Assembly: GCF_024398015.1 (NCBI RefSeq)
Contig: NZ_CP073747.1
Span: forward strand, 1,436,501-1,500,500
Source of the DNA: Kordiimonas sp. SCSIO 12610
Lineage (GTDB): Bacteria; Pseudomonadota; Alphaproteobacteria; Sphingomonadales; Kordiimonadaceae
Reading direction: 5' to 3'
Length of the DNA stretch: 64,000 bases
How positions within the stretch are numbered: position 1 is the stretch's first letter; each line of letters opens with the position of its first letter. Made by a program: the position numbers and the translations under genes. Under the pieces are notes generated by a model that saw only the letters and a program-made list of their open reading frames with translations, did no database searches and was not told the origin of the DNA. Shown here in pieces: positions 44,000-58,176 of this stretch.

Positions 44000-44854
44000 T
44001 CACCGCTTGAACACGACGGTCTTGTTGCCGTTTCTAATCACACGATGTTCAAGGTGAAGGGTCACAGCTTCTGCAAGGGTGATCCGCTCCACATCGCGGC
44101 CCGTTGCAACCAGATCGTCTGGCGTCATGGCATGGTTCACACGGGCGATATTCTGTTCGATAATCGGGCCTTCATCCAGATCCGGGGTTACATAATGCGC
44201 GGTGGCACCAATGATTTTCACCCCCTTTTCAAAGGCCTGATGATAAGGCTTTGCCCCTTTGAAACTTGGTAAGAAAGAATGATGAATGTTGATCACACGC
44301 CCATCCATTTTCGCGCATAAGGTATCGCTGAAAATCTGCATGTAACGGGCGAGGATGATCAAATCGATTTCTTCTTCCTGAACCAGATTATAAAGCTTGT
44401 CTTCCTGCGTTTTTTTTGTGTCAGGCGTTATTGGCATGTGATGGAACGGAACATCATAGGATGCAGCAAGTTGGTATGCGTCTCTGTGGTTTGAAACCAC
44501 AGCACGAATATCCATATTTATCGCCCCGCGCGCATTCCTGTAGAGTAGGTCCATCAAGCAGTGGTCGAATTTGGATACCATGATCAAAACCCGCTGCGGT
44601 TTATCGGCGTCTGAAATTGACCAATTGTCTGAATATTCCGAAACTGTTGGCGCCAATAGGGCTCTCATCGCATTGCAATCCAGACCGTCTTTGTTGGTAA
44701 AGGCTAGCCGCATGAAAAAACAATGGCTGGAGGTATCAGCAAACTGATCACTGGATGTGATGTTGCAGCCGTTTTTTGCGAGCAGGCTTGAAATGTCAGC
44801 AACTATGCCTTCGCGGTCTGGGCATGAAAACGTTAGAACAAATGATGATGACAT
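44000..44854 (-). CDS. purU: Formyltetrahydrofolate deformylase
   Basis: A 284-residue enzyme that hydrolyses 10-formyl-tetrahydrofolate to formate and tetrahydrofolate, feeding purine synthesis and balancing one-carbon pools. It has an N-terminal ACT-like domain (FVLTFSCPDREGIVADI) and a formyltransferase domain with the family's Asn, His and Asp residues in AVVSNH, NIHHSFLPSFKGA and TPDLDEGPI. The frame is open 6 codons further, but the ATG used has a GAGGTT site. It converges on the CinA-like gene. Confidence 0.95.
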   Translation of the reverse strand: MSSSFVLTFSCPDREGIVADISSLLAKNGCNITSSDQFADTSSHCFFMRLAFTNKDGLDCNAMRALLAPTVSEYSDNWSISDADKPQRVLIMVSKFDHCLMDLLYRNARGAINMDIRAVVSNHRDAYQLAASYDVPFHHMPITPDTKKTQEDKLYNLVQEEEIDLIILARYMQIFSDTLCAKMDGRVINIHHSFLPSFKGAKPYHQAFEKGVKIIGATAHYVTPDLDEGPIIEQNIARVNHAMTPDDLVATGRDVERITLAEAVTLHLEHRVIRNGNKTVVFKR

Positions 44855-45195
44855 AATAACCTCGATTAACAACGTGCGTATTCTTATGATTTTGCATTCT
44901 CCTATCGAAAAAATAGGCGTGCGTAAAATGATTATTTGATTATTATGAAATAACTGTATTTTTTGAAATTATATTACATTTTTGATGGGTGAAAATACGG
45001 ACATTTATTGAGCCGGAATTGATTGCGTGTTTGATTTTTCCTGAAAGGGCAAGGTACCAGCTCCTATAGGAATACGGAAGAATACTGTCTGTTAGTCACG
45101 GGTAATGCACTTAATGTCGCAATCTGCTGTTTTAAAACCATACGCGCCTTATAGTGTGGTTATATAAACTTAAGCATCTTTGATGGGGATTTTCG
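44855..45195. other. Divergent upstream region of purU and the cytochrome-rhodanese gene
   Basis: The 341 bp are AT-rich near purU and contain no coding frame, repeat or clear operator that I can identify. Confidence 0.4.
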
Positions 45196-46299
45196 ATGCG
45201 ATATTTTACTCTTCTTTTGTCTTTTGCCGTGGCAACCGCCATCTTGATTTTTCCTGCCTCTGCCTCGGACGATGTGCGGGATGGCTACACAAGGCAATCA
45301 AACCCGCGAACACTGACTGAGGAACAATCGCAAAAAGCCGCGCAAAACTATCAGCGATACTGCGCGCTTTGCCACGGTGAAAATCGGGAAGGACACGCGA
45401 ATGATCATGCGCCATCGCTTAGGAGTAAAAGCCTGATGGAATCAGGTGTTCCTCATTCAATTCTGCGTCCACTTTCTTATGGCCGCGAAGGAACGGCAAT
45501 GGGGGGCTACTTGGATGAAGTTGGTGGCCCTTTAACGCTAGATGAAGCCTGGAACCTGACCTACTGGCTATTCTGGCAATCGGGCGCTACGCGCGTGCGC
45601 CTAAGCGAAGATCCGGTGGAAGGAGATAGCGCTAAAGGCGCTGAATTATATGCCAATGTATGTGCATCCTGCCACGGCACACAGGGCGAGGGCGTAAGCG
45701 CACCAGCGCTTTGGAACCCATCGTTCCTTGCGCACAATAAGGACGAATTTATCCGCTATGCCATTCGCCATGGCCGCGAGGATACCCCGATGGTGGCCTT
45801 TGAAAACAGCCTGTCGCCCGATGATATTGATAATATCACGGCGTTTCTGCGCAGTCAGGCCGATGGAACAGCCCTTGGGAAGCCGGTGCTGAGCGCGCTT
45901 CCTGCGCCCGAGGATTATATTATCAATCCAACACATGACGACCCCGACTTTACGTTGAAGGATGACCTCTATGTGATGGCGGCTGACCTGAACACCGCCA
46001 TGCAGGATAGGAAGCGAATGGTGCTCCTCGATACCCGCGTTCCCTCGGTGTGGCAGCGGGCGCACCTTGAGGGCGCAGTACCAGTGCCCTATTATACGGA
46101 TGTGGATGATTTGATGCGTGATATCCCAAAGGATGTTCAGATTGTTGCCTATTGTTCCTGCCCGCGGGCCGCGGCGGATTATTTGGTCGGGAAACTGCGC
46201 GATATGGGGTACACCCGCACCGCCGTGATGTGGGAAGGTATTTTCGGCTGGATGAATATGGGCTTTCCGGTTGTAAGAGGGGAATTGGAAGCGGAGTGA
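45196..46299 (+). CDS. Diheme cytochrome c fused to a rhodanese domain
   Basis: A 367-residue exported protein. A signal peptide (about 1-23) is followed by two class I cytochrome c domains with CALCH (C56, C59, H60) and CASCH (C156, C159, H160) and candidate Met ligands M102 and M199. The C-terminal 110 residues form a rhodanese-like domain (VLLDTRVPSVWQRAHLEGA) with cysteines at 320 and 322 in VAYCSCPRAAA. It probably handles sulfur redox chemistry in the periplasm and passes electrons to the respiratory chain. It stands alone. Confidence 0.9.
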   Translation: MRYFTLLLSFAVATAILIFPASASDDVRDGYTRQSNPRTLTEEQSQKAAQNYQRYCALCHGENREGHANDHAPSLRSKSLMESGVPHSILRPLSYGREGTAMGGYLDEVGGPLTLDEAWNLTYWLFWQSGATRVRLSEDPVEGDSAKGAELYANVCASCHGTQGEGVSAPALWNPSFLAHNKDEFIRYAIRHGREDTPMVAFENSLSPDDIDNITAFLRSQADGTALGKPVLSALPAPEDYIINPTHDDPDFTLKDDLYVMAADLNTAMQDRKRMVLLDTRVPSVWQRAHLEGAVPVPYYTDVDDLMRDIPKDVQIVAYCSCPRAAADYLVGKLRDMGYTRTAVMWEGIFGWMNMGFPVVRGELEAE

Positions 46300-46596
46300 G
46301 GAAAGTCGAAAGATTTACCGTCATTTTTAGGGATGTATCAGCCGAGGCTATCCGGCGAACTAAAACATCCCTCCGTGGGATCAAATCGTAACAACCTAAA
46401 TGCAAAATGCGCTTCAGGAGGCTTCTTGAATAGCGCTCTCCGAGGGATGAACCGCGCATCGTAAAACAAAAGTGCGCCTTTGCGCTTTTTGCTTAACTTT
46501 TGTAGGAGTTCAGGAGGGGACACAAATTGGGGTACACAGACGGGAGATATTTTTCCGTTGCGTGGTATAAATTTCTATTAAGTATTTGATTTTAAA
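46300..46596. other. Region between the cytochrome gene and the island junction
   Basis: A cruciform-like hairpin lies at 46329-46372 (AGGGATGT/ACATCCCT with an inner GCCG/CGGC stem) and a weak terminator-like hairpin at 46468-46490 with a T5 tail. No coding frame was accepted. From here the native chromosome ends at the truncated tRNA copy. Confidence 0.5.
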
Positions 46597-46651
46597 TGGT
46601 GCGCCCGGCCAGACTCGAACTGGCACGACCATACGGTCGGGAGATTTTAAG
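46597..46651 (-). repeat. Displaced 3' fragment of tRNA-Leu (attachment site, left end of the island)
   Basis: These 55 bases are identical to 54837-54891, the 3' part of the intact tRNA-Leu from the anticodon stem to CCA. The match ends exactly at TTTTAAG, after which the two sequences differ. A partial tRNA copy at one end and an intact one at the other is the classic outcome of tyrosine-integrase insertion into a tRNA gene. Confidence 0.95.
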
Positions 46652-46913
46652 GATCAGGGGAGCGAGTGGATCGCCTTTCACTTACACGCAAAATTCTGCG
46701 AAAAATTATCTGCAGCCGGGCTTTTCTAACCGCTATTTTCACAAATCAGGCAACAGCCTAGTTCCCCATAAACAATGGGAAGCTATCATAAAGATCACTT
46801 TTGAGAAAGTGCTCTCTAATATAAAAAGGCGTTCTGTTATCGACCCTTAGCGGACATCAGGCTTATGTGAATTGTGATAGTTCTAGATTTACTTATTGCA
46901 GCAATATATCGTC

Positions 46914-47258
46914 TTAGTCTGCATCATTAAGCAACAGCCATAAATTGATTATAAGACCAAGAGCGGCGGCATACATCAGGTGCTTTAGAGAAGTTTGAGT
47001 TGTCGTCATCGTTTCAATCAGATGTTCCCATGGCATAAGCAGGGCCACAACCAGGGCTGCGCCTCCCAGCAGCTGCAACTTCTCCAGTCGGGCCTTCCCA
47101 ATCTCGTTCAACGCCCTATCCAGTGGAGTGTAGGCAGGCAAATCTACGTTACTATCGCGCACTTCTCTAAGTGTTTGCGTGAGAAGTGCTTGAAAGGCTG
47201 CATCGTCAGCATCTGTATCGTCTTCAATCTCATGATCTGGCTTGTGTTCAGTAGGCAT
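46914..47258 (-). CDS. Putative membrane anti-sigma factor
   Basis: A 114-residue protein with an acidic cytoplasmic N-terminus (about 60 residues) and two C-terminal membrane helices (about 65-80 and 92-111). Its start codon lies inside the sigma factor gene (11-bp overlap), the arrangement typical of ECF sigma/anti-sigma pairs. No zinc-binding HxxxCxxC motif is present, so it is not a ZAS-type anti-sigma; the assignment rests on position and topology. It is the last gene of the leftward operon. Confidence 0.6.
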   Translation of the reverse strand: MPTEHKPDHEIEDDTDADDAAFQALLTQTLREVRDSNVDLPAYTPLDRALNEIGKARLEKLQLLGGAALVVALLMPWEHLIETMTTTQTSLKHLMYAAALGLIINLWLLLNDAD

Positions 47259-47793
47259 CCGACCTTCCTTTCAGGTGTTTTTTTAGTTTAGCCTTACCGC
47301 GATTGATATGTGATTTACATGTGCCCAAAGGCATTTCCATTATGCGGGCTGCTTCAGAATGCGAATAGCCCTGAGTAAAACAAAGGTCGATTGCAAATCG
47401 TTCCTCATGGGATAAACATTGCATGGCTTTGGCAATATCCAGCGTCAGGTGACTATGCGCTGTAGAACTCATGTTATCCATTACTTCCGTTTCGAACGCG
47501 TCACCGGATAGCAGTTCTTTCGTGCCATGTTTACGGCAGTGATTGATAAAACAGCGGTAAGCAATTGTCATGAGCCAGCCACCAAGATGGCCCTTGCCTT
47601 CGAATTGGTTCAGCTTCCGGTACGCGGTCATGAATGTTTCTTGAGCGAGATCATCGACTAAAACCATATCGCCCTTAGTAAGGTGGGCAAGTGTGCTCCT
47701 TACCTGCTGCTGATATCTTTTGATCAGCAAGTTTATTGCAGCTTCTTCGCCATTCAGATAATGAGCGATCAGATGTTGGTCTGTGAGGGCCAT
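47248..47793 (-). CDS. ECF-type RNA polymerase sigma factor
   Basis: A 181-residue sigma-70 family factor. Region 2 is DLAQETFMTAYRKLNQFEGKG followed by WLMTIAYRCFINHCRK, and region 4 is LSHEERFAIDLCFTQGYSHS then AARIMEMPLGTCKSHINRGK. It redirects transcription to a small regulon, which is probably controlled by the overlapping downstream membrane protein. It is the middle gene of a DUF6249-sigma-anti-sigma operon on the integrated island, so the island brings its own transcription switch. Confidence 0.93.
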   Translation of the reverse strand: MALTDQHLIAHYLNGEEAAINLLIKRYQQQVRSTLAHLTKGDMVLVDDLAQETFMTAYRKLNQFEGKGHLGGWLMTIAYRCFINHCRKHGTKELLSGDAFETEVMDNMSSTAHSHLTLDIAKAMQCLSHEERFAIDLCFTQGYSHSEAARIMEMPLGTCKSHINRGKAKLKKHLKGRSDAY

Positions 47794-47808
47794 GAATAGG
47801 GTGGCGAA

Positions 47809-48189
47809 TTACAGGTTGTCGTCAGACTTGCGGGAAATCCGTTCAACTACTAGCGAGATTAAGTAACCTAGGCCGGTTACAATGGCGAAAAGCCCGCCAC
47901 CTTCAAGCAATAGGATAAACTCTAGTGTCCCTGGATCAAACATCTGGCTGTACAGGAAGGATGTTGTCCCAAGTATCAACAGAAAAATAGCCTTGCGGTG
48001 ATCACCTGGGCGCCTTGACATGCCACTGGTGAGGGCTTGAACAACCTCTACGTCAAGTTCATTACCTCGTTCGACGTGCTTTTCAAGTAGGTTAAATAGC
48101 GCTTTGTGGCGCATGTATTTAAAAAAGCCATGGGCGATCACAGCAACCGCACTCAAACCAAAAATTAACAAAAGCCCGTTGGCAAGCAT
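47809..48189 (-). CDS. DUF6249-like two-helix membrane protein
   Basis: A 126-residue protein with a membrane helix at about residues 1-21, a charged cytoplasmic loop (LEKHVERGNELDVEVVQALT) and two further helices at about 66-113. The pattern fits DUF6249, which is often encoded next to ECF sigma factors. It is the first gene of the operon, 15 bp before the sigma gene. It may take part in sensing or in holding the sigma factor. Confidence 0.7.
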   Translation of the reverse strand: MLANGLLLIFGLSAVAVIAHGFFKYMRHKALFNLLEKHVERGNELDVEVVQALTSGMSRRPGDHRKAIFLLILGTTSFLYSQMFDPGTLEFILLLEGGGLFAIVTGLGYLISLVVERISRKSDDNL

Positions 48190-48360
48190 TGATCTCTCCT
48201 ACTTTGTTCGTTCTCGACCGGTCCAGCATATTTTGTGAAGACTGACCGCGCTATCCATTAGACGCGTTCAGCGCCGGAAATGGATGCAGTAATTTTTTGC
48301 ATCTGTTTGCCCGTTGGCCAGCGTCTATCCTTGTAAAGCTCAAAACAGGAGGATACCATA

Positions 48361-49854
48361 ATGCACGAAAATCATCCGCTTTGTCGGCCCCAAACGAGGG
48401 GAAACAAGCCGTTTGTTCATTCGATTACCTTTTTGATATTGAATGTTTTACTGATGTCATTGATTAATCCGGTGGCAGCCTTGGACGTGTCTAACGATCT
48501 ACATGAGGCAAAAATAAAAAAAACTCAAAATGTAATTGCAGAGTATCTGGATGCAGGCTGGTTTTCTGGCAATGTGGCCGTTTTCAGCCAGGATAAAGTC
48601 GTTTTCCGGCACAGCTATGGTTTCTCAGATATCGACCAGGAGAAGGAAAATACCGATGAAACCAGAATTCGAATTGGCTCGATCAACAAACATTACACCG
48701 CAGCACTAGTATTGCGCCTTGTGGACCAAGGCCTGATATCTCTGGACGATACCCTGGATAGATTTGCTCTTGGTTTCCCTCATGACATCGGGGCAAAGAT
48801 TACGGTCCGTCACTTACTGTCCCATCGGTCTGGATTTAAGGATATTTTCACCGAAGAGTATATGAACACCTACCAGTCGCTAAAAACCATATCAGACAAA
48901 ATGCCCTTGCTGCTAGATGAGCCACTGCTCTTCGAACCAGGAAGTGACCATGCATACAGCAATTATGGCTATATTATTTTAGGTGCGATTGTGGAAAAGG
49001 TTTCAGGTCAGGACTTTAGACAGGTATTGCAGGATGAAATCCTAGAAATAATCGGAGCGGAAAATACCTTCTATGTTTTAACCGATGAAGTGCCCGGTAA
49101 GGCACGCAGTTATCAATTCACTAGTATGGGCGGGAAGCGTGACATGACCAGCCGGTTGGAAAATGTTACCCCGGATGGCGGCATGTATGCGTCTGCTTCT
49201 GACTTGGCCCTGTTCTATTCAAGGCTATTATACAGTAATGATATCCTCAGTGACGGTATGAAAGCCGTAATGGCAAGTGGATACCAGCTTTCTCCTCCGG
49301 AATGGGACGAGATAATGCAGAGCGATGGAGCCATGTGGAATTCATATGGCGGGGGTCCTGGTGTAAGCGCAGCGGTAGAGATATCCATCCGTGACAGACT
49401 ATTCGTGATTGTTCTCGCCAATACAGATGGCTTAGTTGCAGAGAGGATTTCTCAGCGTTTGGTTTCAGTGTTCGCAGGTCATGAGCCTAAGCCTATGGAA
49501 TTGCCGGTATCAGTCTTTGCGATGCATCATTTGCAAGAACGTGGACTGGATCAGTTCCGTCTAACGATCGGTCAGGCTCTGAGAGACGGCGGCTATGAAG
49601 GTTATACCGACCGGCCTTTAAATCGCCTAGGTTTAGACCTGATGAGAGAAGGCAAAAGCGAACATGCCCTTCAAGTGTTATTGGCGAATGTTGATATGTT
49701 TCCCAACCTCGCTAATCCCCACGACAGTCTCGCGTACTTGCATGAGCAAATAGGGAATCGAGAAGAGGCTGTGGCTGCATATCGAAGAGCACTCGAGATA
49801 GATGCAAGTCTTAGCTCAGCTTTGGAAGGTCTTAAAAGGCTGGAGGATAGTTAG
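48361..49854 (+). CDS. Beta-lactamase-fold serine hydrolase with C-terminal TPR-like repeats
   Basis: A 497-residue exported protein. The N-terminus is a signal anchor (hydrophobic about 22-40). The catalytic fold has SINK near residue 107 (SxxK motif), YSNYG near 200 (YxN motif) and PGVSAAVEIS near 340. The last 80 residues form tetratricopeptide-like helices (NPHDSLAYLHEQIGNREEA). Relatives act on peptidoglycan, esters or D-amino peptides, and the true substrate is unknown. It is divergent from the sigma operon with 171 bp between the starts and is an obvious candidate target of that sigma factor. Confidence 0.85.
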   Translation: MHENHPLCRPQTRGNKPFVHSITFLILNVLLMSLINPVAALDVSNDLHEAKIKKTQNVIAEYLDAGWFSGNVAVFSQDKVVFRHSYGFSDIDQEKENTDETRIRIGSINKHYTAALVLRLVDQGLISLDDTLDRFALGFPHDIGAKITVRHLLSHRSGFKDIFTEEYMNTYQSLKTISDKMPLLLDEPLLFEPGSDHAYSNYGYIILGAIVEKVSGQDFRQVLQDEILEIIGAENTFYVLTDEVPGKARSYQFTSMGGKRDMTSRLENVTPDGGMYASASDLALFYSRLLYSNDILSDGMKAVMASGYQLSPPEWDEIMQSDGAMWNSYGGGPGVSAAVEISIRDRLFVIVLANTDGLVAERISQRLVSVFAGHEPKPMELPVSVFAMHHLQERGLDQFRLTIGQALRDGGYEGYTDRPLNRLGLDLMREGKSEHALQVLLANVDMFPNLANPHDSLAYLHEQIGNREEAVAAYRRALEIDASLSSALEGLKRLEDS

Positions 49855-50361
49855 CTGCTATTCTCGTTGCCCAGGTTTAGGCTCACACGCTTGATTGTTT
49901 CGCTGTCTACAGCAGTAGCTATCTAAGTACCAAATAAGCTACAGCCAGCCTTGGTGTTACGATAACCACGAAGGCAGCTACGCACGCAAATCTGGATATA
50001 TCCTTGCCAGGTGCTGGACTATCAGTCTCTGGTGATATCCGGGTAGGATTTGACGGCACGCCTTGGTATACAACATTAGATGGGAGAGGAAATGCCTCTC
50101 CCAGCGACATAAGTCCGCTAAGTGCCGAAAGCGGACGTTCTGACAGAATATAAAACTCAGACTTTGGGATTAGATGTTGATCGTTGATTTTAGAGCCCTT
50201 TTGTCTATTGCGTAGTCGGGCCGTCAATTAGTTTCCCTAGCGTAATTCTGACTAGGCTTCGTGCAAAAATGTTGACGACCAAGAGATAACTTATCTCTTG
50301 AGACCATACCAGAACTGGCAACGTTCTGCAGTCCACAAAGACAACGAACAAAACGCAGGCA
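49855..50361. other. Region between the hydrolase and the integrase
   Basis: A leftward open frame of 102 codons at 49919-50227 ends in a membrane-like stretch but has no convincing ribosome site and is not called. From 50269 the sequence reads as the eroded N-terminus of the integrase (see that entry). No terminator was recognised for the hydrolase. Confidence 0.4.
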
Positions 50362-51364
50362 TTGGCATTTGAGCGCAAATGGCGGCATGAAATACACGCC
50401 AAAGAATTCTTGGGCGATTTGGACGATATTAATTTGCATGAAGCTTTTGAACTGTTTCTAAAGACGAGGGATAGTATTGCAAGCCACAAAGGGCTCACTT
50501 CTATTGTTAAGGGACTTAAGGTCCACTTTGATACAGCTATGCTTTTGCATCGCTTGACTACGGCTGAAGTCGAACGTTGGGTGCAGATGCGAAAAGATCA
50601 GGGCCGTAAATCACAAACAATCCAGCACGGCATTCATGTTATGCGGGGTACTGTTGAGCACGCACGTAAGCTTGGTTACCGTGTGGCAGAGATTGAATGG
50701 CCACGAATGAAGAAGGACAAAGGCCGTCTTAAGTATCTGACTGTTGAACAGGAACAGAAACTACTGAAGGAGCTGCAACCTAATCTATCTATTGGGCCAA
50801 AGGCACAGCATGATCCATTGAAGTGGTCAGCCGAGAAGAGACGTGCCCGGCTTGACAGCTATCACTTGACGCAGATGCTCTTAGACACTGGGGCCCGGTA
50901 TAGTGAAATTACTAGTCTATCATGGCGACAAGTGGACCTTGCGGAGCGGACCATTAACCTATGGCGTTCGAAAGTTTCCAATGAATCTGTGCTTTATATG
51001 ACTGACCGAATTTATACAGTTTTGAAGGAACGTAGTGAAAACAAGGATCATGAAGAATGGGTGTTCGCCAACAAAGTAAGGAACGGCCCACGACCACATT
51101 CGACAGCAGCAATCAGGAACGCAATGAAACGAGCAGGGCTGGACGGCTTCAGATTGCATGACGTTCGCCATACTGCTGCGAGTAGGCTGGTACAAAACGG
51201 CCTGAGCCTGCAAGAAGTTAGTTCTATCCTTGGCCACAGTGGGCTACAAATGACTGCTCGTTACGCTCATTTGCAGCCCGCTGAAACGTCTAAAAAAAGC
51301 GCGAGATGTGTTCAATCGTGTCAATCAGGCAAGCAAACCATCACTGAAGATTGTAGGGGAATAA
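50269..51364 (+). pseudogene. Tyrosine recombinase (integrase) with disrupted N-terminus and an A7 frameshift
   Basis: From a TTG at 50362 the frame gives a tyrosine recombinase with all catalytic residues: Arg in TGARYSEITS (near 180), HDVRHTAA (near 268), the LGHSG box and Tyr in TARYAHLQP (near 302). Upstream the homologous N-terminus continues in the same frame to an ATG at 50269 but is broken by TAA (50287) and TGA (50299). Near the end the run of seven A at 51292-51298 shifts the frame: skipping one A gives KKARDVFNRVNQASKPSLKI and a stop at 51362-51364, a normal integrase end. It is probably inactive unless rescued by slippage. This is likely the enzyme that inserted the island. Confidence 0.8.
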
Positions 51365-51369
51365 GTGGT

Positions 51370-51519
51370 ATGAAAGTGCAGCGTTGGCTTGTTACAGTTC
51401 ATCTGCCAAACGGCACCTACGACCAAATCTTTGTCACAACCAATAATCCAGCCAACGTCCGCCAGCTTGCCGAAGCACAGTCTGGCGGCAAAGTGATTAA
51501 TTGGCGACAGTTGTGTTAA
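51370..51519 (+). CDS. Small protein trailing the integrase
   Basis: A 49-residue frame that starts at ATG 51370 five bases after the expected integrase stop, with a GGGGA ribosome site, and ends at 51519. It reads MKVQRWLVTVHLPNGTYDQI... with a later NPANVRQLAEAQSGGK. Short proteins of this pattern are often seen beside integrases in integrative elements. In the frameshifted integrase it becomes an in-frame tail, so the long fused frame is an artefact of the A7 shift. Confidence 0.55.
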   Translation: MKVQRWLVTVHLPNGTYDQIFVTTNNPANVRQLAEAQSGGKVINWRQLC

Positions 51520-51628
51520 TTCGCGATAACAAATACATACACCACAACCGTAATCTCAACTTCCTTAGCACGCCTTTTTCAAAGGTGTTAACATAGCTTG
51601 TTGGCTATGACCTAAGAGTTCATAATGA

Positions 51629-53158
51629 TTAATTCAGATACGCGCTTATATCTACCTTGCGGCTTTTACTATTAGCCTCTTTAACCGCCTTTAGCATTCT
51701 ATCAAGCTCGGAGCGTATATAGTATTTTCCATTCACCATTACACCGTGAATGGATTGAGTATTCGATATATCTTCAAGAGGGTTGCGTTCTAAAAGAACT
51801 AGGTCTGCTCTTGCACCCGGTGCAATCCTGCCAGCATTTATACCCATCCATTTAGCCGTGTCTATTGTCGCTGAGCGAAGAACTTCTGCGGGGCTTAAAC
51901 CGAAGCCCTGAAGTGCCATGAGCTCTTGGTGGAGGGCGAAGCCAGCTATCATGCCGCAAGCGCCCAAAGAGTCTGTTCCCGCAGTAATCGTCACTTTTTC
52001 CTTAACAAGAGCCTGCGTAATAATTTTGTTCGCTTCATTATATGTTTGGTAATAGATCGACGCCGCTTTTTTCGAGGTCTCATCTGGATAAGTAAAATCG
52101 TATGAGTTGCCCCCCGGAAGGCACCCTTTAGATACGAAGGAGCCTTCGACCCAACCTGGGTTTTGATATTCATATGGTAGAGTTTTTAAAAAATCAGGGA
52201 GATCAAAATCCTGAGATGGTAGCGTTAGATGTAGCCAAACTGTGGAAGCCACCTTAATGTCACGTTTTTTGAAATCCTTAGCTATTTTACCAGCAGCTTC
52301 CTTCACGTAACTAAGAAACGCTTGACTGTTTTTTTCATCAATCCTGCCAAACTCATTCAATGATATTAGTGTGATCGAGTCTAAGTGACTTATTTGAGAT
52401 TGCTCAGCTTTGTAAATATCGTCGAAAGATAACCCAATTGGTACATGGCCTATCACTGGTAGATTTAATTTTTTCGCCTCATCATTCACTATGTAATAGA
52501 TTTCTGGCGACATATCCGAGCTCAATTTAATGGCTTGATAACCTTCAGCATGAAAATTTTGCACGGCTGCTCTTGCTTTTGCTTCAGTGGGGTAGCTTTT
52601 GTGACGCTCCTCAAAGATATGACGCATTTGCGCGTTCATGCCTCTTTGGGTAGACAATTTGGGGGATGCGACGAATATATCGGGTCCTAAACCACCGTTT
52701 TTAATATTTTCCTTCCAGCGAAAATGATGGCTCATACCAGTCATCTCACCAACATGAGTGATGCCATTCGCGATATATAACAGTAAATCATTCTTACTTT
52801 TCTTTAAGTGGACGTGAGAGTCAATTAAGCCCGGTATCAAGTATTTGTTCTGCCCATCAATTACTGTGAAGTTATCCTCTGTCTCGATTTGATCTGATAC
52901 TGAGATAATTCTTCCATCCTCGATTAAAATGGTTCTATTCGTAAGCATGGTCTCGGCATCTTGCCCCAGTATATTTACATTCGTTATGGCTATTTTACCT
53001 GTGATCGCTTTGAATTGATTGGTATCAACAAGCTCGGTGTTGCCCCCGAGTGTCTGATCAATATTCCATCGGAAAAACAGATAAACAGAGCCTATAACCG
53101 CTATCAATAAAATGAATACGATCTTTGCTAGTTTTGAAATAAAAGATTGAGGTTTCAT
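51629..53158 (-). CDS. Secreted or membrane-anchored amidohydrolase
   Basis: A 509-residue metal-dependent hydrolase of the amidohydrolase superfamily. An N-terminal helix (about 11-29) anchors or exports it. The metal ligands are visible as HVH in GLIDSHVHLKK, candidate bridging Lys in AIKLSSD, His in VIGHVP and SHLDS and Asp in TAGTDSLG. The final metal-bound beta-sandwich segment ARADLVLLERNPLEDI is present. It resembles imidazolonepropionase-like and prolidase-like dipeptidases, but the substrate is not known. A longer frame starts 12 codons upstream; the ATG with GAGAG is preferred. Last gene of the AraC pair. Confidence 0.87.
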   Translation of the reverse strand: MKPQSFISKLAKIVFILLIAVIGSVYLFFRWNIDQTLGGNTELVDTNQFKAITGKIAITNVNILGQDAETMLTNRTILIEDGRIISVSDQIETEDNFTVIDGQNKYLIPGLIDSHVHLKKSKNDLLLYIANGITHVGEMTGMSHHFRWKENIKNGGLGPDIFVASPKLSTQRGMNAQMRHIFEERHKSYPTEAKARAAVQNFHAEGYQAIKLSSDMSPEIYYIVNDEAKKLNLPVIGHVPIGLSFDDIYKAEQSQISHLDSITLISLNEFGRIDEKNSQAFLSYVKEAAGKIAKDFKKRDIKVASTVWLHLTLPSQDFDLPDFLKTLPYEYQNPGWVEGSFVSKGCLPGGNSYDFTYPDETSKKAASIYYQTYNEANKIITQALVKEKVTITAGTDSLGACGMIAGFALHQELMALQGFGLSPAEVLRSATIDTAKWMGINAGRIAPGARADLVLLERNPLEDISNTQSIHGVMVNGKYYIRSELDRMLKAVKEANSKSRKVDISAYLN

Positions 53159-53268
53159 ATTCGCTCTCGCATAAAATAGTTCATTCGAGCGCAAATACGC
53201 AAACTACCATTTCTGAGGCCTCTCATTTCATATTTTGAGGCGAAAAAAATGAGAGTTTGATGATTATT

Positions 53269-54411
53269 TTACACGATGTTCGTCCTATTGATGAATTCTT
53301 TAGGTGTTAGGCCTTCACTTTTTTTGAATGCCCGATAAAAACTAGCTTGAGAATTAAAGCCAGAATCCAATGCGATATTTAATATAGACACGCCTTCTTT
53401 TTTACTCGCACTTAGTTTGATTTTTACCTGTTCAATACGGTACTGATTCAATAGATCGCGAAATGACATGTTAAATTTCTGATTAACAACAAAAGACAGG
53501 CTCTCAGAGGATACATTCATGTTGCTTGCTAATTGCTTTAACGTTAGTTCGCCATCAAGGAATATTTTCTCTTCCTCCAATTTTGAACGTAAAGACAGTG
53601 CTATTTCTTGTATCTGATTATTACTTAATTTATTGGCGAGTGTCTTAAGATCATTTTTAGCTGTATGGACACGCAAGCTATCATTTTTATAGCCCATGAA
53701 CCCGATATAATAGGTAACAAATGCTAATAGCAGATTGAAGAACCGCCACCTGTAATCGGATTGGTCCATTGCGAGCGACATGGCGGTCAGGGTTTGGTTT
53801 ATGGCCAGAACGCCGACGATGCAAAAGCTCCAAACCATCAGGGTTCTGAGCCATTTGTATATCACGAGCGATTTATAATCATTAAATTGCGTTAGCCATT
53901 TCAGGTAAGTTTTTATCCGTTTCAGGCCAGATGCCATATAGAAAATTGATATGATAACAACGAGATAGTCTTCGATCTGGTTGGATAGGTCAAAATATAA
54001 CTGATTGCTGATTTGTAATTTTGCCTGCGCCGTATCTTCTCCCAATACTGCAAAATATACAGCCGTATCATAGAGACCATAAACTAGTGCGGGAACAAGA
54101 TGAAAAAAATCGATCCTTGTAAAAGCATAATTATCTTGAGTGAGCGACTTAACATATAAATAAATCAGGGGTGGTAAAAGTACCTCTGAACCAGCGGGAA
54201 AGTACCTCATGACTGGCACATTCCATAGGCCTGTTGTATGCAGAAGTACTTTGAAATTTGCTAGACAAAAGGCCAGAATAACTATGCCGAGAATGCGTTT
54301 ACTATATTCCTGCTCTTTAGTCGCTAGAAGCAGGAACGCGGTGATTATACCTTGAACTAGGCCGATAATAATTAAGATATCAAAAAGCGAAAAAGTTACA
54401 GATTCATTCAC
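53269..54411 (-). CDS. Membrane-bound AraC family regulator
   Basis: A 380-residue protein with an N-terminal membrane domain of about seven helices (residues about 10-240) and a C-terminal AraC-type DNA-binding domain with two helix-turn-helices (LKQLASNMNVSSESLSFVV and NIALDSGFNSQASFYRAFKK, then TPKEFI). Membrane-spanning AraC proteins sense signals at the inner membrane. It lies 110 bp before the amidohydrolase in the same direction and probably controls it. Confidence 0.88.
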   Translation of the reverse strand: MNESVTFSLFDILIIIGLVQGIITAFLLLATKEQEYSKRILGIVILAFCLANFKVLLHTTGLWNVPVMRYFPAGSEVLLPPLIYLYVKSLTQDNYAFTRIDFFHLVPALVYGLYDTAVYFAVLGEDTAQAKLQISNQLYFDLSNQIEDYLVVIISIFYMASGLKRIKTYLKWLTQFNDYKSLVIYKWLRTLMVWSFCIVGVLAINQTLTAMSLAMDQSDYRWRFFNLLLAFVTYYIGFMGYKNDSLRVHTAKNDLKTLANKLSNNQIQEIALSLRSKLEEEKIFLDGELTLKQLASNMNVSSESLSFVVNQKFNMSFRDLLNQYRIEQVKIKLSASKKEGVSILNIALDSGFNSQASFYRAFKKSEGLTPKEFINRTNIV

Positions 54412-54836
54412 TGGTATATATGCTCGAATTAAATCTAATGAAGACGACGGAAAACTTTGTAATCAAAATCATAGCGCTTTGATTTACCGCCCGCAAGCTG
54501 TTCACATGGCAAAAAGTTACTGAGTTGTTTGCTGACTAAGGCCTCTTATCACTATAGATTTTTCAGGGGCTGTAACACTATTATGTGTGATCAGCACGGC
54601 ATAAAGGCTCGTTAACTTATAAGAAAATAGAAAATTTGTTCATTTTCCCAAAATTGGTACGGACCTGTTTCCGTGCTCCACTTGGTCCACTTTCGCATGG
54701 TTCTGCGCCTTCGCAGGGCATTGCGAGCCATGTCCCAGAGATTTGCTGTCATTTTTAGGAAAGTGTCGGTGACGACTATCTAAAAGTATCCGTCATCCAG
54801 ATACTCAAAAACCCGCGAAGATCGCGGATTTGTTGT
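54412..54836. other. Right end of the island, noncoding
   Basis: The 425 bp between the AraC gene and tRNA-Leu contain no coding frame. They include a segment similar to the left flank (54739-54780, see findings) and the terminator of the tRNA at 54807-54827. Confidence 0.5.
54807..54827 (-). terminator. Rho-independent terminator of tRNA-Leu
   Basis: On the minus strand CCGCGA pairs with TCGCGG across a 3-base loop, followed by GTTTTT, about 10 bases after the tRNA 3' end. It is inside the island, so the element has replaced the original tRNA terminator. Confidence 0.7.
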
Positions 54837-54923
54837 TGGTGCGCCCGGCCAGACTCGAACTGGCACGACCATACGGTCGGGAGATTTTAAGTCTCCTGCG
54901 TCTACCAATTCCGCCACGGGCGC
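54837..54923 (-). tRNA. tRNA-Leu (anticodon TAA), insertion site of the island
   Basis: An 87-base class II tRNA with encoded CCA. The acceptor stem pairs GCGCCCG with CGGGCGC, the D region reads GGCGGAATTGGTAGACGC, the anticodon loop CTTAAAA gives TAA (UAA), and a long variable arm CGACCGTATGGTCG is present. The 3' 55 bases are duplicated at 46597-46651. The intact gene keeps its 5' part from the chromosome and received its 3' part from the element. Confidence 0.97.
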
Positions 54924-54961
54924 ATCTTCATGTGGGGTAGACTTCACTGTGTCTTGGCCGC

Positions 54962-54989
54962 AATTTATACAAAGCCAATCGCAAGTCAA
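54962..54989 (-). promoter_or_regulatory. Candidate promoter of tRNA-Leu
   Basis: TTGACT (54984-54989, minus strand) and TAAATT (54962-54967) with a 16-base spacer, 39 bp before the tRNA. Good -35 match, moderate -10. Confidence 0.5.
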
Positions 54990-55092
54990 TATATGACTGC
55001 AATATAAATGAAAAATTATTTGATTTGTTTGCGGATGGGCATGATTAGGCCGATGCACGCTCCTCAGTTTTGCGGCCTCACAAGCGCACCCT

Positions 55093-55725
55093 CTATTTTT
55101 CCTGCCCACCCGTCAGGACTTTAACATTCAAAATTTCATTTCGGGTAATTCTGATTTCTTTCTCAGGGTTAAATTGCCAAAGGACCAGTTCATCATCCTG
55201 CCATTTGATGAATTGTTTGATAAAGCCTTTGTGCCCCGTAAGCTCGACAAGTACAAAGTGGCCGCGCCGCGGTATTTGATTTGGGTGCACATAAACCAAA
55301 TCCCCAGCCAGATAGCGCGGTGCCATACTGTCACCTGTCACGAAAACGGCGAATGCATCCTCAACGCCTTCCAGACTTGTTGGGCGAAAGGTCCAATCGA
55401 TCGCGGTATCATTCATAATGATATTGCCGTCTTTCCCGCCCTGAGCGCACCCAAGGACAGGAAGGTCACGCCGCGAGCAACGTGCGGATGAATTTGACCT
55501 TAGTCTTTGTACCCGTTGGCGAACAGGAAGTGCCGTTTTAGGGGCGGAAGTATTCTTCGTGCCGCTAAGAGTATGGAAGCGATGCAATTTTTCAGGAATG
55601 GCGCGCGCGCCGTTTTCAATTTGCAGAATTGTTTTTTCGCTCATTCCCATACTGAGGCCGAGTTGCTTTTGCGTCAGGCCAAGCTTTTGCCGGTAGGCGA
55701 TGAGGGACTTTTGAGCGTTAATCAT
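55093..55725 (-). CDS. XRE/S24-type phage-like repressor (LexA-like self-cleaving protein)
   Basis: A 210-residue protein with an N-terminal helix-turn-helix (RQKLGLTQKQLGLSMGMSEK) and a C-terminal S24 peptidase domain with GDSMAPRYLAGDLVYV (nucleophile Ser) and the general-base Lys near FIKQF. The linker of about 70 residues between them is rich in R, S and P. Such repressors hold prophages or stress genes and release on RecA-driven autocleavage. No other phage gene is nearby, so it may be domesticated. Ribosome site AGGAGAAC favours the ATG used over one 11 codons upstream. Confidence 0.85.
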   Translation of the reverse strand: MINAQKSLIAYRQKLGLTQKQLGLSMGMSEKTILQIENGARAIPEKLHRFHTLSGTKNTSAPKTALPVRQRVQRLRSNSSARCSRRDLPVLGCAQGGKDGNIIMNDTAIDWTFRPTSLEGVEDAFAVFVTGDSMAPRYLAGDLVYVHPNQIPRRGHFVLVELTGHKGFIKQFIKWQDDELVLWQFNPEKEIRITRNEILNVKVLTGGQEK

Positions 55726-56061
55726 AATACACGTTCTCCTTTTGTTCTTATTATACAAAGATGCATTACTGAGGCCAGAAAAAATTGAAATCTGACAGTA
55801 AAAAAATCCGGCAATCCATTTTCAATATGGCGCCGCTGTTCTTGGCACATAGTTTGCTTTTATATGGCTGAATATAAGAATTTTGGTGGATGATGGTATG
55901 TCCGTCTTAGAAGGTAAATGTAAGTAACGTGTTGATTGAAATGCATAAAATACGACTGGTTTGCGTTGGTGCCTTGGCATCAGGCAACCATTACTTTTTA
56001 CCGACTGGGCAGTATCTGCCACAGCAACCTAATCGTTTGAAGGCCATAGAGGAGAGCATGT
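55726..56061. other. Divergent region between the S24 repressor and flgK
   Basis: The 336 bp contain the promoters of both flanking genes; no operator, repeat or coding frame could be resolved by eye. Confidence 0.4.
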
Positions 56062-58176
56062 ATGACACTGAATAATATCCTCAGCACGTCGCTTACCGGG
56101 CTTTTTACAAACCAGACCAATATTCGGGCAACGGCGAACAATGTTGCGAACGTAAACACACCGGGTTTTTCGCGGATTCAGGTTAATCAGGAAGCACTGG
56201 TTTTACAGGGGGAATCTGTTGGTGTTGGGGTTGCGAGTATTACCCGCGTTGTTGACCGGTTCCTTGAGGAAGCGAGCAGAACTGCTATTTCAAACACGGA
56301 TCAATTTGCGGTTCAGCGTGAATTTCATGACCGTTTTCAGGGTGTCTTGGGTGATCCATCGTCGGATAGTTCGCTCGCGGCACGGCTGGATCAGGTTTTT
56401 CAAACAACATCTGATTTGGCGTTAAACCCTGCTGATGTGTTAAGGCGCCAGCAAACCGTTTCCGAACTCGAAAATTTCCTGAGCCTTGTTGGTGGCCTTC
56501 AGGGGCAGATACAGGATTTGCGCGCCGATGTTAGCCGTCAGATTGGTGAGGTTGTAACTGCCGTTAACGAAAACCTGCAGCGGATTAATGAACTAAATCC
56601 GTTATTGGTTCGTCAAACCGCGCTTGGTTTGGAAACGGGTGGTGTCGAAGGGCAATTGCAACAAGCCCTTGACGAGCTCGCTGAATATATCGATTTTAAT
56701 ATTGTTCCGCAGGATAATGGCGCCGTTTTCCTGAATACGACGGCAGGGCAACCCTTGTTGGATACTTCGCTCACGCAGCTTGAGTATTCGCCGCCCGGTA
56801 TTGTCACATCTGAAACCTTTTTCCCGCCGATCAATCTATTCCGTGTGAACAGTGATACGCTGGAGCCGATTTCATCCTCTACTGATATCACGGGTACAAT
56901 TCGTTCTGGCCGCTTACGGGGGTTGGTTGACCTGAGGGATACGCAATTTGTCGACCTTTCGGAATCTATTGGTGAACTTGGCGCCCGTGTTGCTGATGAA
57001 TTTAATGCAGTACAGAACCGATTTTCGTCCGTTCCAGCCCCCAATACCCTTGAAGGGCGCCCAACAATTGTTGACGGTGCACAAGCGACCAACTTTACAG
57101 GCATTGTTACCTTCGCTGTAGTTGATGCAAACAGTAATTTGGTAGCGCGGACCACGGTTGATTTTGACGCGGCACCACCTGCAGACTTTAATGCCCTCAT
57201 TGCGCAAGTGAATGCAGGCCTTGGCGGCGCTGGAACGTTATCATTAAATAATGGTGTCGTGTCCTTATCCGCAACAGCGCCAGGAAACGGCGTTGTGGTT
57301 TCCGATGACGAAACAAACCCAAGCTTGCGGGCAGGGCGCGGGTTCAGTCATTTCTTTGGCCTGAATGACCTTATACAGTCTGATGACCCAGGAATTTACG
57401 AAACGGGTTTAACCGGCACTGAAAATCATAATATTGGTGCAGGGCAGTCCCTAACGTTTCGGGTACGGGACGAAGCCGGCCGCGAGCTTGCAACCGTGAA
57501 TGTGGGGGCGCTTGGCACCACATATAATGATGCGATCACCGCCCTGAATAATGTGACGGGGCTTGGGGCTTTTGTGAATTTCTCCCTCAACAGTGAGGGG
57601 GCGCTTGAGTTTACTGTCAATCCACCACGCAGTGATGTTGATTTGGAATTAGTGACGGATAGCACGCAGATCGGGACAACGGGCCTGAGTTTCGGGCGTG
57701 TTTTTGGCCTTGCCGAAGGTCAGCGGGCAAGGGCGGCGCAGAATATTACGGTTGTTGAGCGTATTCGGGAAAACCCAAACACGCTCGGTTTAAGTGTTTT
57801 ATCACCGACGGCTGCTGTTGGGGAATTGGCGCTCAATAACGGCGACCAGCGTGGTGCGCTTGCGTTCCAGCAATTGGAGACATTGCAGGTTGGCTTCGCA
57901 CAGGCAGGTGAATTGAACGCAGGTAACGTATCACTTAGCCAATTTACAGCACAGTTTTTGGGTAATGCTGGCTTGCAAGCGCTTAGGGCAACCAATTTGG
58001 AAGAAGATAATCAGGCGTTGCTCGGTGAATTGCAGGAACGCTTGTCCGACGTCACTGGTGTGAATTTGGACGAAGAATTAGCAAATTTGGTTGTCTTCCA
58101 GAATGCATACAGTGCAGCGGCAAGGGTGCTGTCGAGCGTTCAGGAACTTTACGATTCATTATTGAACGCGGTATAG
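56062..58176 (+). CDS. flgK: Flagellar hook-associated protein 1
   Basis: A 704-residue structural protein that joins the flagellar hook to the filament. The N-terminal block LSTSLTGLFTNQTNIRATAN with NNVANVNTPGFSR and the C-terminal heptad region (LEEDNQALLGELQERLSDVT, VFQNAYSAAARVLSS) form the coiled-coil core shared with flagellins. The long central part (about 170-620) is a beta-rich insertion. Ribosome site GAGGAGAG. It is followed 10 bp later by flgL in the usual order. Confidence 0.95.
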   Translation: MTLNNILSTSLTGLFTNQTNIRATANNVANVNTPGFSRIQVNQEALVLQGESVGVGVASITRVVDRFLEEASRTAISNTDQFAVQREFHDRFQGVLGDPSSDSSLAARLDQVFQTTSDLALNPADVLRRQQTVSELENFLSLVGGLQGQIQDLRADVSRQIGEVVTAVNENLQRINELNPLLVRQTALGLETGGVEGQLQQALDELAEYIDFNIVPQDNGAVFLNTTAGQPLLDTSLTQLEYSPPGIVTSETFFPPINLFRVNSDTLEPISSSTDITGTIRSGRLRGLVDLRDTQFVDLSESIGELGARVADEFNAVQNRFSSVPAPNTLEGRPTIVDGAQATNFTGIVTFAVVDANSNLVARTTVDFDAAPPADFNALIAQVNAGLGGAGTLSLNNGVVSLSATAPGNGVVVSDDETNPSLRAGRGFSHFFGLNDLIQSDDPGIYETGLTGTENHNIGAGQSLTFRVRDEAGRELATVNVGALGTTYNDAITALNNVTGLGAFVNFSLNSEGALEFTVNPPRSDVDLELVTDSTQIGTTGLSFGRVFGLAEGQRARAAQNITVVERIRENPNTLGLSVLSPTAAVGELALNNGDQRGALAFQQLETLQVGFAQAGELNAGNVSLSQFTAQFLGNAGLQALRATNLEEDNQALLGELQERLSDVTGVNLDEELANLVVFQNAYSAAARVLSSVQELYDSLLNAV

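Follow-up and report, generated by a model that had tools for sequence, protein, structure and literature searches.

The region between two tRNA-Leu(TAA) sequences of Kordiimonas sp. SCSIO 12610 very probably represents a small, decayed genomic island

In the part of the Islander source drawn on here, an island residing in a tRNA gene (tDNA) is recognised by (i) an intact tDNA and a cognate 3' fragment lying in the same orientation on its 3' side, (ii) an integrase, (iii) a length of 2–200 kb, with a size peak at 13.6 kb, and (iv) the location of the fragment outside any Pfam domain (PMC4383910). An empty site in a relative adds support but does not define such an island. The cis-mobilizable element (CIME) is defined, in the part of its source used here, as a decayed integrative and conjugative element (ICE) or integrative and mobilizable element (IME) that retains the attachment (att) sites attL and attR, has lost its integration and transfer genes and is mobilised by a related element (PMC5704250). 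In the present study we analysed a stretch of 64,000 nucleotides (the window) of Kordiimonas sp. SCSIO 12610 (contig NZ_CP073747.1, positions 1,436,501 to 1,500,500), and in particular the region adjoining its tRNA-Leu(TAA) gene. It is very probable that this region is a genomic island, which arose by site-specific integration, mediated by a tyrosine recombinase, with the anticodon-loop subsite of the tRNA-Leu(TAA) gene as its target. We favour this reading because the att pair is perfect and unique, the 3' fragment lies on the 3' side of the tRNA gene in the same orientation, an integrase domain is located between the repeats, and the similarity to the same-genus genome G001 breaks off at the tRNA end. 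The same observations support an earlier interpretation made without database searches (the sequence-only reading), which had proposed an island inserted in tRNA-Leu(TAA) with exactly defined ends. The features that delimit the island are as follows.

54837 to 54923, minus strand: intact tRNA-Leu(TAA), the integration target (ARAGORN; Rfam RF00005, 57.1 bits)
54837 to 54891, minus strand: attL, the 3' 55 nt of the intact tRNA-Leu(TAA) (repeat search)
46597 to 46651, minus strand: attR, the displaced 55-nt 3' fragment of tRNA-Leu(TAA), identical at 55/55 positions and without the 5' half
46652 to 54836, no strand: island body, 8185 bp, with a guanine plus cytosine (GC) content of 44.0% versus 46.7% in the rest of the window
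54790 to 54836, minus strand: terminator-like hairpin followed by a T run, immediately 3' of the tRNA and within the island (folding of 54780–54836)
50284 to 51369, plus strand: tyrosine integrase pseudogene, catalytic domain intact, both ends broken (Pfam PF00589; frame analysis)

The two att copies (46597–46651 and 54837–54891) form a direct repeat identical at all 55 positions, in the same orientation and 8240 bp apart, which fixes the end points of the island to the base. With up to 3 mismatches tolerated, the 55-mer occurs twice in the whole genome (3,501,651 bp, one contig), and a reversed-pattern control does not occur at all. ARAGORN and the repeat search thus bore out the perfect repeat, its 8240-bp spacing and the intact tRNA at 54837–54923, all noted in the sequence-only reading. 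Its description of the repeat as reaching from the anticodon stem to the CCA proved correct at the CCA end, but not at the start: the repeat sets in at position 33 of the tRNA, within the anticodon loop (the anticodon is at position 35), and leaves out the 5' side of the anticodon stem. The left copy represents only the 3' part of a tRNA, since the tRNA 5' half is absent (the 32 adjoining nucleotides match it at only 9 positions) and Rfam detected no second tRNA; neither ARAGORN, applied to the window, nor Rfam, applied to 44000–57000 (E≤0.1), found a second tRNA-Leu. This fragment is not part of a Pfam domain, as the open reading frame (ORF) at 46596–46850 gave no Pfam match at 0.01. The 54780–54836 stretch is unusually stable (folding z of −6.06), and none of 200 shuffled sequences was equally stable. 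Neither a third att copy nor an att site separating the two cargo modules described below was found in the window at 34/55 or more identities, nor was an additional copy of the tRNA end at 18/22 or more.

The presence of an integrase remnant between the repeats, also claimed in the sequence-only reading, was confirmed by a match to Phage_integrase (PF00589) of 102.3 bits, against a cut-off of 27.1. Its Arg, His-x-x-Arg, His and Tyr motifs can be aligned with their counterparts in the HP1 integrase. Two in-frame stops interrupt the N-terminal part and the frame changes after the catalytic Tyr. All relatives of this protein are distant: 818 phage and 412 plasmid records were matched, none of them at 60% identity or above (26–29% among the matches listed). 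Genome contigs yielded 15 distant loci (12 at 27–37% identity and three matched over short stretches only), and viral contigs a single match at 32%.

Comparison with G001 revealed that the tRNA, the gene for the S24 regulator and flgK are present in this genome too. Its alignment with the window extends over 181 bp (91% identity), includes the identical 87-bp tRNA and stops at 54836, i.e. exactly at the tRNA 3' end. G001 lacks the island and carries about 20 kb of other genes between the tRNA and purU. The search for an empty site in related genomes, proposed together with the sequence-only reading, gave the break at the tRNA 3' end in G001 and, for a different insert, the G009/G011 pair described below; no exact empty site of this island was found. 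Nor was the gene order of the window seen without a 55-bp copy in the relatives compared, none of which is conspecific.

Under the island reading, the att site of the incoming element would have brought with it the 3' part of the tRNA, so that the gene stayed whole after insertion (54837–54923). The original 3' fragment would have been displaced to 46597–46651, and the tRNA would have been supplied with a new terminator-like hairpin. The recombination was presumably catalysed by the integrase now lying between the repeats or by a relative of it. As this gene is broken at both ends, autonomous excision has probably been lost; another integrase recognising the same att sites could still move the island, in the manner of a CIME.

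We also examined the occupation of this site across 23 genomes, each represented by a single stretch with tRNA-Leu(TAA) and the window being one of these; gaps were measured from the tRNA to the S24 match. The conserved S24 gene was found 3' of the tRNA in 15 stretches; the arrangement is reversed in G000 and G001, and in the remaining six S24 lies outside the fetched stretch. The gap measures 40, 52, 61, 69 and 88 bp in five of the 15 and from 740 to 10821 bp in the other ten. With respect to orientation, the tRNA 3' end faces S24 in all 15 family genomes measured and points away from S24 and flgK in G000 and G001 (window 54837–55725), which we read as a local inversion in their genus.

Exact copies of the tRNA 3' end of at least 13 nt were present in three of the 23 stretches (55 nt in the window, 17 nt in G009 and 16 nt in G015). 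G009 (L153) and G011 (L154) constitute a filled/empty pair of near-identical species: their flanks are 96% identical, and G009 contains an additional 1612 bp ending in the 17-bp copy. The one main ORF of this insert (415 aa) is without a Pfam match, and PADLOC gives it a weak TIR-type match (E 0.0025); copies of TAAGTNATTGATTTTAA are located near both ends of the insert (0 and 2 mismatches). In G015 (L081, 9124–11121), a 1998-bp insert lies between tRNA-Leu(TAA) and the 16-bp copy; its two main ORFs (257 and 173 aa) have no Pfam matches, and the larger shows a weak ZorB/MotB-type match (E 0.0038). In the ten intervals examined for an integrase, no retained ORF of at least 70 aa matched a panel of four integrases (E≤0.01), a panel that other integrase types would escape. 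Taken together, these sequences suggest that the tRNA-Leu(TAA) site has been used repeatedly as an insertion hotspot.

A related, decayed element was detected in G005, at the same tRNA. The segments that link it with the window are:

54640 to 54740, minus strand: arm segment Y, also present at this tRNA in G005 (65 bp at 85% and 31 bp at 94% identity)
51269 to 51508: segment Z, comprising the integrase tail and part of a 49-aa ORF, recognisable in G005 (alignment)

Downstream of the G005 tRNA-Leu(TAA) we identified, in this order, segment Y, a dGTPase gene (PADLOC dGTPase, E 1.8e-141) and a decayed stretch resembling the 3' end of the window integrase together with the small ORF that follows it. 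The Z alignment scored 81, against a maximum of 36 across 200 shuffles. Unlike the island, the G005 element carries a dGTPase between arm and tail, most of its integrase is unrecognised, and no att repeat was found. Since Y and the integrase tail are common to both loci and the genes between them are not, the arm and tail appear to be shared while the cargo differs, although only two cases are available. These data could be taken to indicate that the tRNA-Leu(TAA) elements form a lineage not yet described, which has a constant backbone (Y, a cargo slot, a small ORF plus integrase tail), whose cargo is swapped between species (an AraC-type regulator and an amidohydrolase versus the G005 dGTPase) and whose target is shared with small integrase-less inserts moved in trans; we consider such a lineage unlikely. 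The segment 46280–54930 has no second place in its own genome at E≤1e-3, save for a 27-nt tRNA stretch, and a 25-mer of Y occurs there once (≤3 mismatches). Y gave no matches in viral contigs (two patterns) and none in plasmids.

The remaining genes of the island are listed below.

46914 to 47258, minus strand: small protein whose gene overlaps that of the sigma factor, C-terminal half hydrophobic, without a family match (same position in the paralogous operon L150)
47248 to 47793, minus strand: extracytoplasmic function (ECF) RNA polymerase sigma factor (Pfam; NCBIfam sigma70-ECF)
47809 to 48189, minus strand: first gene of the sigma operon, for a DUF6249-like membrane protein (28.4 bits, where the Pfam cut-off is 33)
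48361 to 49854, plus strand: serine hydrolase of the class-C beta-lactamase/DD-peptidase superfamily, C-terminal TPR (Pfam, NCBIfam)
51370 to 51519, plus strand: 49-aa ORF after the integrase, without a family match (partly recognisable in G005)
51629 to 53158, minus strand: amidohydrolase (Amidohydro_1), hydrophobic N-terminus, GC 41.4% (Pfam; PDB relatives)
53269 to 54411, minus strand: AraC-type regulator with HTH_18 at the C-terminus, GC 38.1% (Pfam; GC)

The cargo reads as two regulator-plus-hydrolase modules, namely (i) the ECF operon with the serine hydrolase and (ii) the AraC-type regulator with the amidohydrolase. That each regulator controls its neighbouring hydrolase is a guess from gene position alone. 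The lower GC content of the second module suggests that the island is probably composite. The hydrophobic N-terminal part of the AraC-type regulator is probably situated in the membrane, and the hydrophobic C-terminal half and gene position of the small protein at 46914–47258 suggest an anti-sigma role. The serine hydrolase scored far under the NCBIfam cut-offs for resistance beta-lactamases (class C, 53.6 versus 415 bits, among the matches listed). Among 246 genomes sampled from the order, the amidohydrolase was detected in its own genome only at E≤1e-70 (the 245 others were negative), and so was the island sigma factor at E≤1e-40. The latter has a paralogue in its own genome (45% identity), encoded in an operon with the same three kinds of gene (for DUF6249, an ECF sigma factor and a small hydrophobic protein) at L150 3748–5017 (C1, about 601–602.5 kb). 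The sigma operon is hence not special to the island, and the trio may be a recurrent module. Among the papers searched, the name DUF6249 was met in one, on plant kinases.

The absence of the usual phage or conjugation genes from a cargo of a sigma-factor operon and two hydrolases, as described in the sequence-only reading, held in scans with Pfam, NCBIfam, PHROGs and PADLOC. The island ORFs yielded no capsid, portal, relaxase or conjugation families (Pfam, PHROGs and PADLOC; NCBIfam among the matches listed), and no transfer families in those scanned with Pfam and, among the matches listed, NCBIfam. A prophage or phage satellite was likewise not indicated, as a PHROGs scan of eight island ORFs recovered models for integrase, sigma factor and regulator and none for capsid, portal or terminase. 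The lone phage-type match is that of the serine hydrolase (1.1e-50), to a PHROG grouping tail proteins that have lysin activity, and is a match to the superfamily. PADLOC detected no anti-phage defence genes among the same number of ORFs at 1e-3. Plasmid relatives are distant (24–28% identity for the AraC-type regulator and 26–30% for the amidohydrolase, among the eight matches listed for each). Overall, cargo of this kind is nothing unusual in a small island.

On the left side, the island is bordered by two further segments:

46513 to 46596, no strand: 84-bp segment between attR and X, with TAAGTNATTGATTTTAA (one mismatch, 46579–46595) adjoining the tRNA fragment
46444 to 46512, minus strand: hairpin element X, 69 bp, 88% identical to the G005 sequence directly after the tRNA-Leu(TAA) CCA

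The next gene (45196–46299) encodes a cytochrome c-rhodanese fusion and has a GC content of 54%. It was found (E≤1e-100) in 12 of the 41 genomes searched, its own included, and is absent from the same-genus G001.

Several observations weigh against the island reading. G001 does not provide a clean empty site, because about 20 kb of other genes lie beyond its tRNA, and no exact empty site was present among the genomes examined. The integrase is separated from the tRNA by 3.3–3.5 kb, rather than being adjacent to it. It has no close relative in 28 other family genomes at 1e-60 and only two other matches among 385 genomes of the class at 1e-25. The serine hydrolase is not unique to the island, as relatives at 51% identity occur in the family genomes G009 and G011. 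Composition is weak evidence, since only the AraC/amidohydrolase half is atypical: the tetranucleotide z reaches 2.8 and 2.0 in the 2-kb windows at 52001 and 53001 and ranges from −0.6 to 1.35 in the other island windows. Finally, X lies 84 bp from the left fragment in the window versus 0 bp from the tRNA CCA in G005, an offset that insertion into a pristine site does not by itself explain.

This offset bears on an extended version of the island reading, to which we assign a chance not far short of even, namely that the island entered a site already holding an older element, an arm of which remains as 46300–46596 (the TAAGTNATTGATTTTAA motif, X and a 42-nt repeat at 46311–46352), the rest having been deleted. 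The 84-bp segment would then possibly be the arm scar of this element. X was found in only two of 29 family genomes (G000 and G005), and is thus not a conserved tRNA flank; this survey scored at most ten candidates per genome, so that misses are possible, and X could also be a palindromic repeat inserted on its own. The 42-nt repeat links 46311–46352 at 74% identity with 54739–54780, beside Y. The motif, placed directly against the left fragment, was present (≤1 mismatch) in four of 24 stretches (the window, G004, G009 and G010), always adjoining a tRNA-Leu(TAA) end or copy; in the three relatives it lies 3–8 nt past the tRNA end, but in the orientation opposite to that in the window. Followed by ATGG, the motif matched 22 viral contigs, nine of which run into the antisense tRNA 3' end (read by eye; an automated TCGAA test flagged four of them) and seven of these nine contain an integrase match (E≤1e-4). 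In five of the seven, the integrase lies to the same side of the att core as the motif. As the motif side in the window is outside the island, this suggests that an older, mostly deleted element was there when the island entered. On the other hand, the integrase lies on the opposite side in the other two (the near-copies L173 and L176), 13 of the 22 contigs show neither a tRNA end nor an integrase match, and several of the nine are near-copies of one another. An accretion of this kind is further disfavoured by the failure to find a third att copy in the window. The GGGGACACAAATTGGGGWACA stretch of the 84-bp segment had no matches in viral contigs and one place in the window, and arm-type repeats common to both island ends were not detected (no shared 9-mer in 300 nt each).

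It is also conceivable, though somewhat unlikely, that the island did not use its own integrase when it entered and was mobilised in trans, as may be the case for the inserts at the same tRNA in G009 (1612 bp) and G015 (1998 bp), which are bounded by tRNA repeats and have no ORF matching the four-integrase panel. The lesions at both ends of the island integrase, compared with 0/55 changes in the unconstrained left att copy, would fit such a history; however, a 1.1-kb gene can acquire a few such lesions in a short time, and the panel would miss other integrase types. Moreover, the repeats in G009 and G015 are only 16–17 bp long and correspond to the acceptor end, instead of 55 bp, so that another integrase was probably at work in those genomes. 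That the left copy is the relic of a tandem tRNA array, with old chromosomal genes between the copies, is extremely improbable. Unequal duplication could in principle yield a partial tRNA copy, but the left copy has no 5' half (9/32), no second tRNA-Leu was found (ARAGORN for the window, Rfam for 44000–57000), an integrase lies between the copies, and the amidohydrolase and sigma factor are without close relatives in the sample of the order. The array was rejected on the first two of these grounds.

Integration of an island into tRNA-Leu(TAA) thus remains the explanation that we prefer. The locus is real and ordinary in kind: the island is small and decayed, sits at a busy tRNA integration site and carries regulator-plus-hydrolase cargo. 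More interesting than the island itself is the history of this site, with its hotspot character, its inserts lacking a recognised integrase and a relative carrying other cargo. In the family, tRNA-Leu(TAA) appears to be a recurrent insertion site, with one clean filled/empty species pair, and the inserts without a recognised integrase raise the specific question of which enzyme inserts them.

Set beside the described systems, the island resembles the tDNA islands of Islander, as presented in the part of that source used here (PMC4383910), in having an intact tDNA and a displaced 3' fragment on the same replicon, on the 3' side and in the same orientation, a tyrosine integrase between them, a length (8.2 kb) within 2–200 kb and a fragment located outside any Pfam domain. 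The start of its repeat in the anticodon loop corresponds to the anticodon-centred attP subsite 'A' given there. It differs in that its integrase is broken and lies 3.3–3.5 kb from the tRNA, and in being smaller than the 13.6-kb peak; nevertheless, each of the defining Islander features tested is present in its anatomy. The island also resembles a CIME, again as outlined in the consulted part of the source (PMC5704250), and may be described as a CIME-like remnant by its anatomy rather than by demonstrated descent from an ICE or IME: no transfer genes were found in it, its integrase is broken, accretion is possible, and both attL and attR have been kept.

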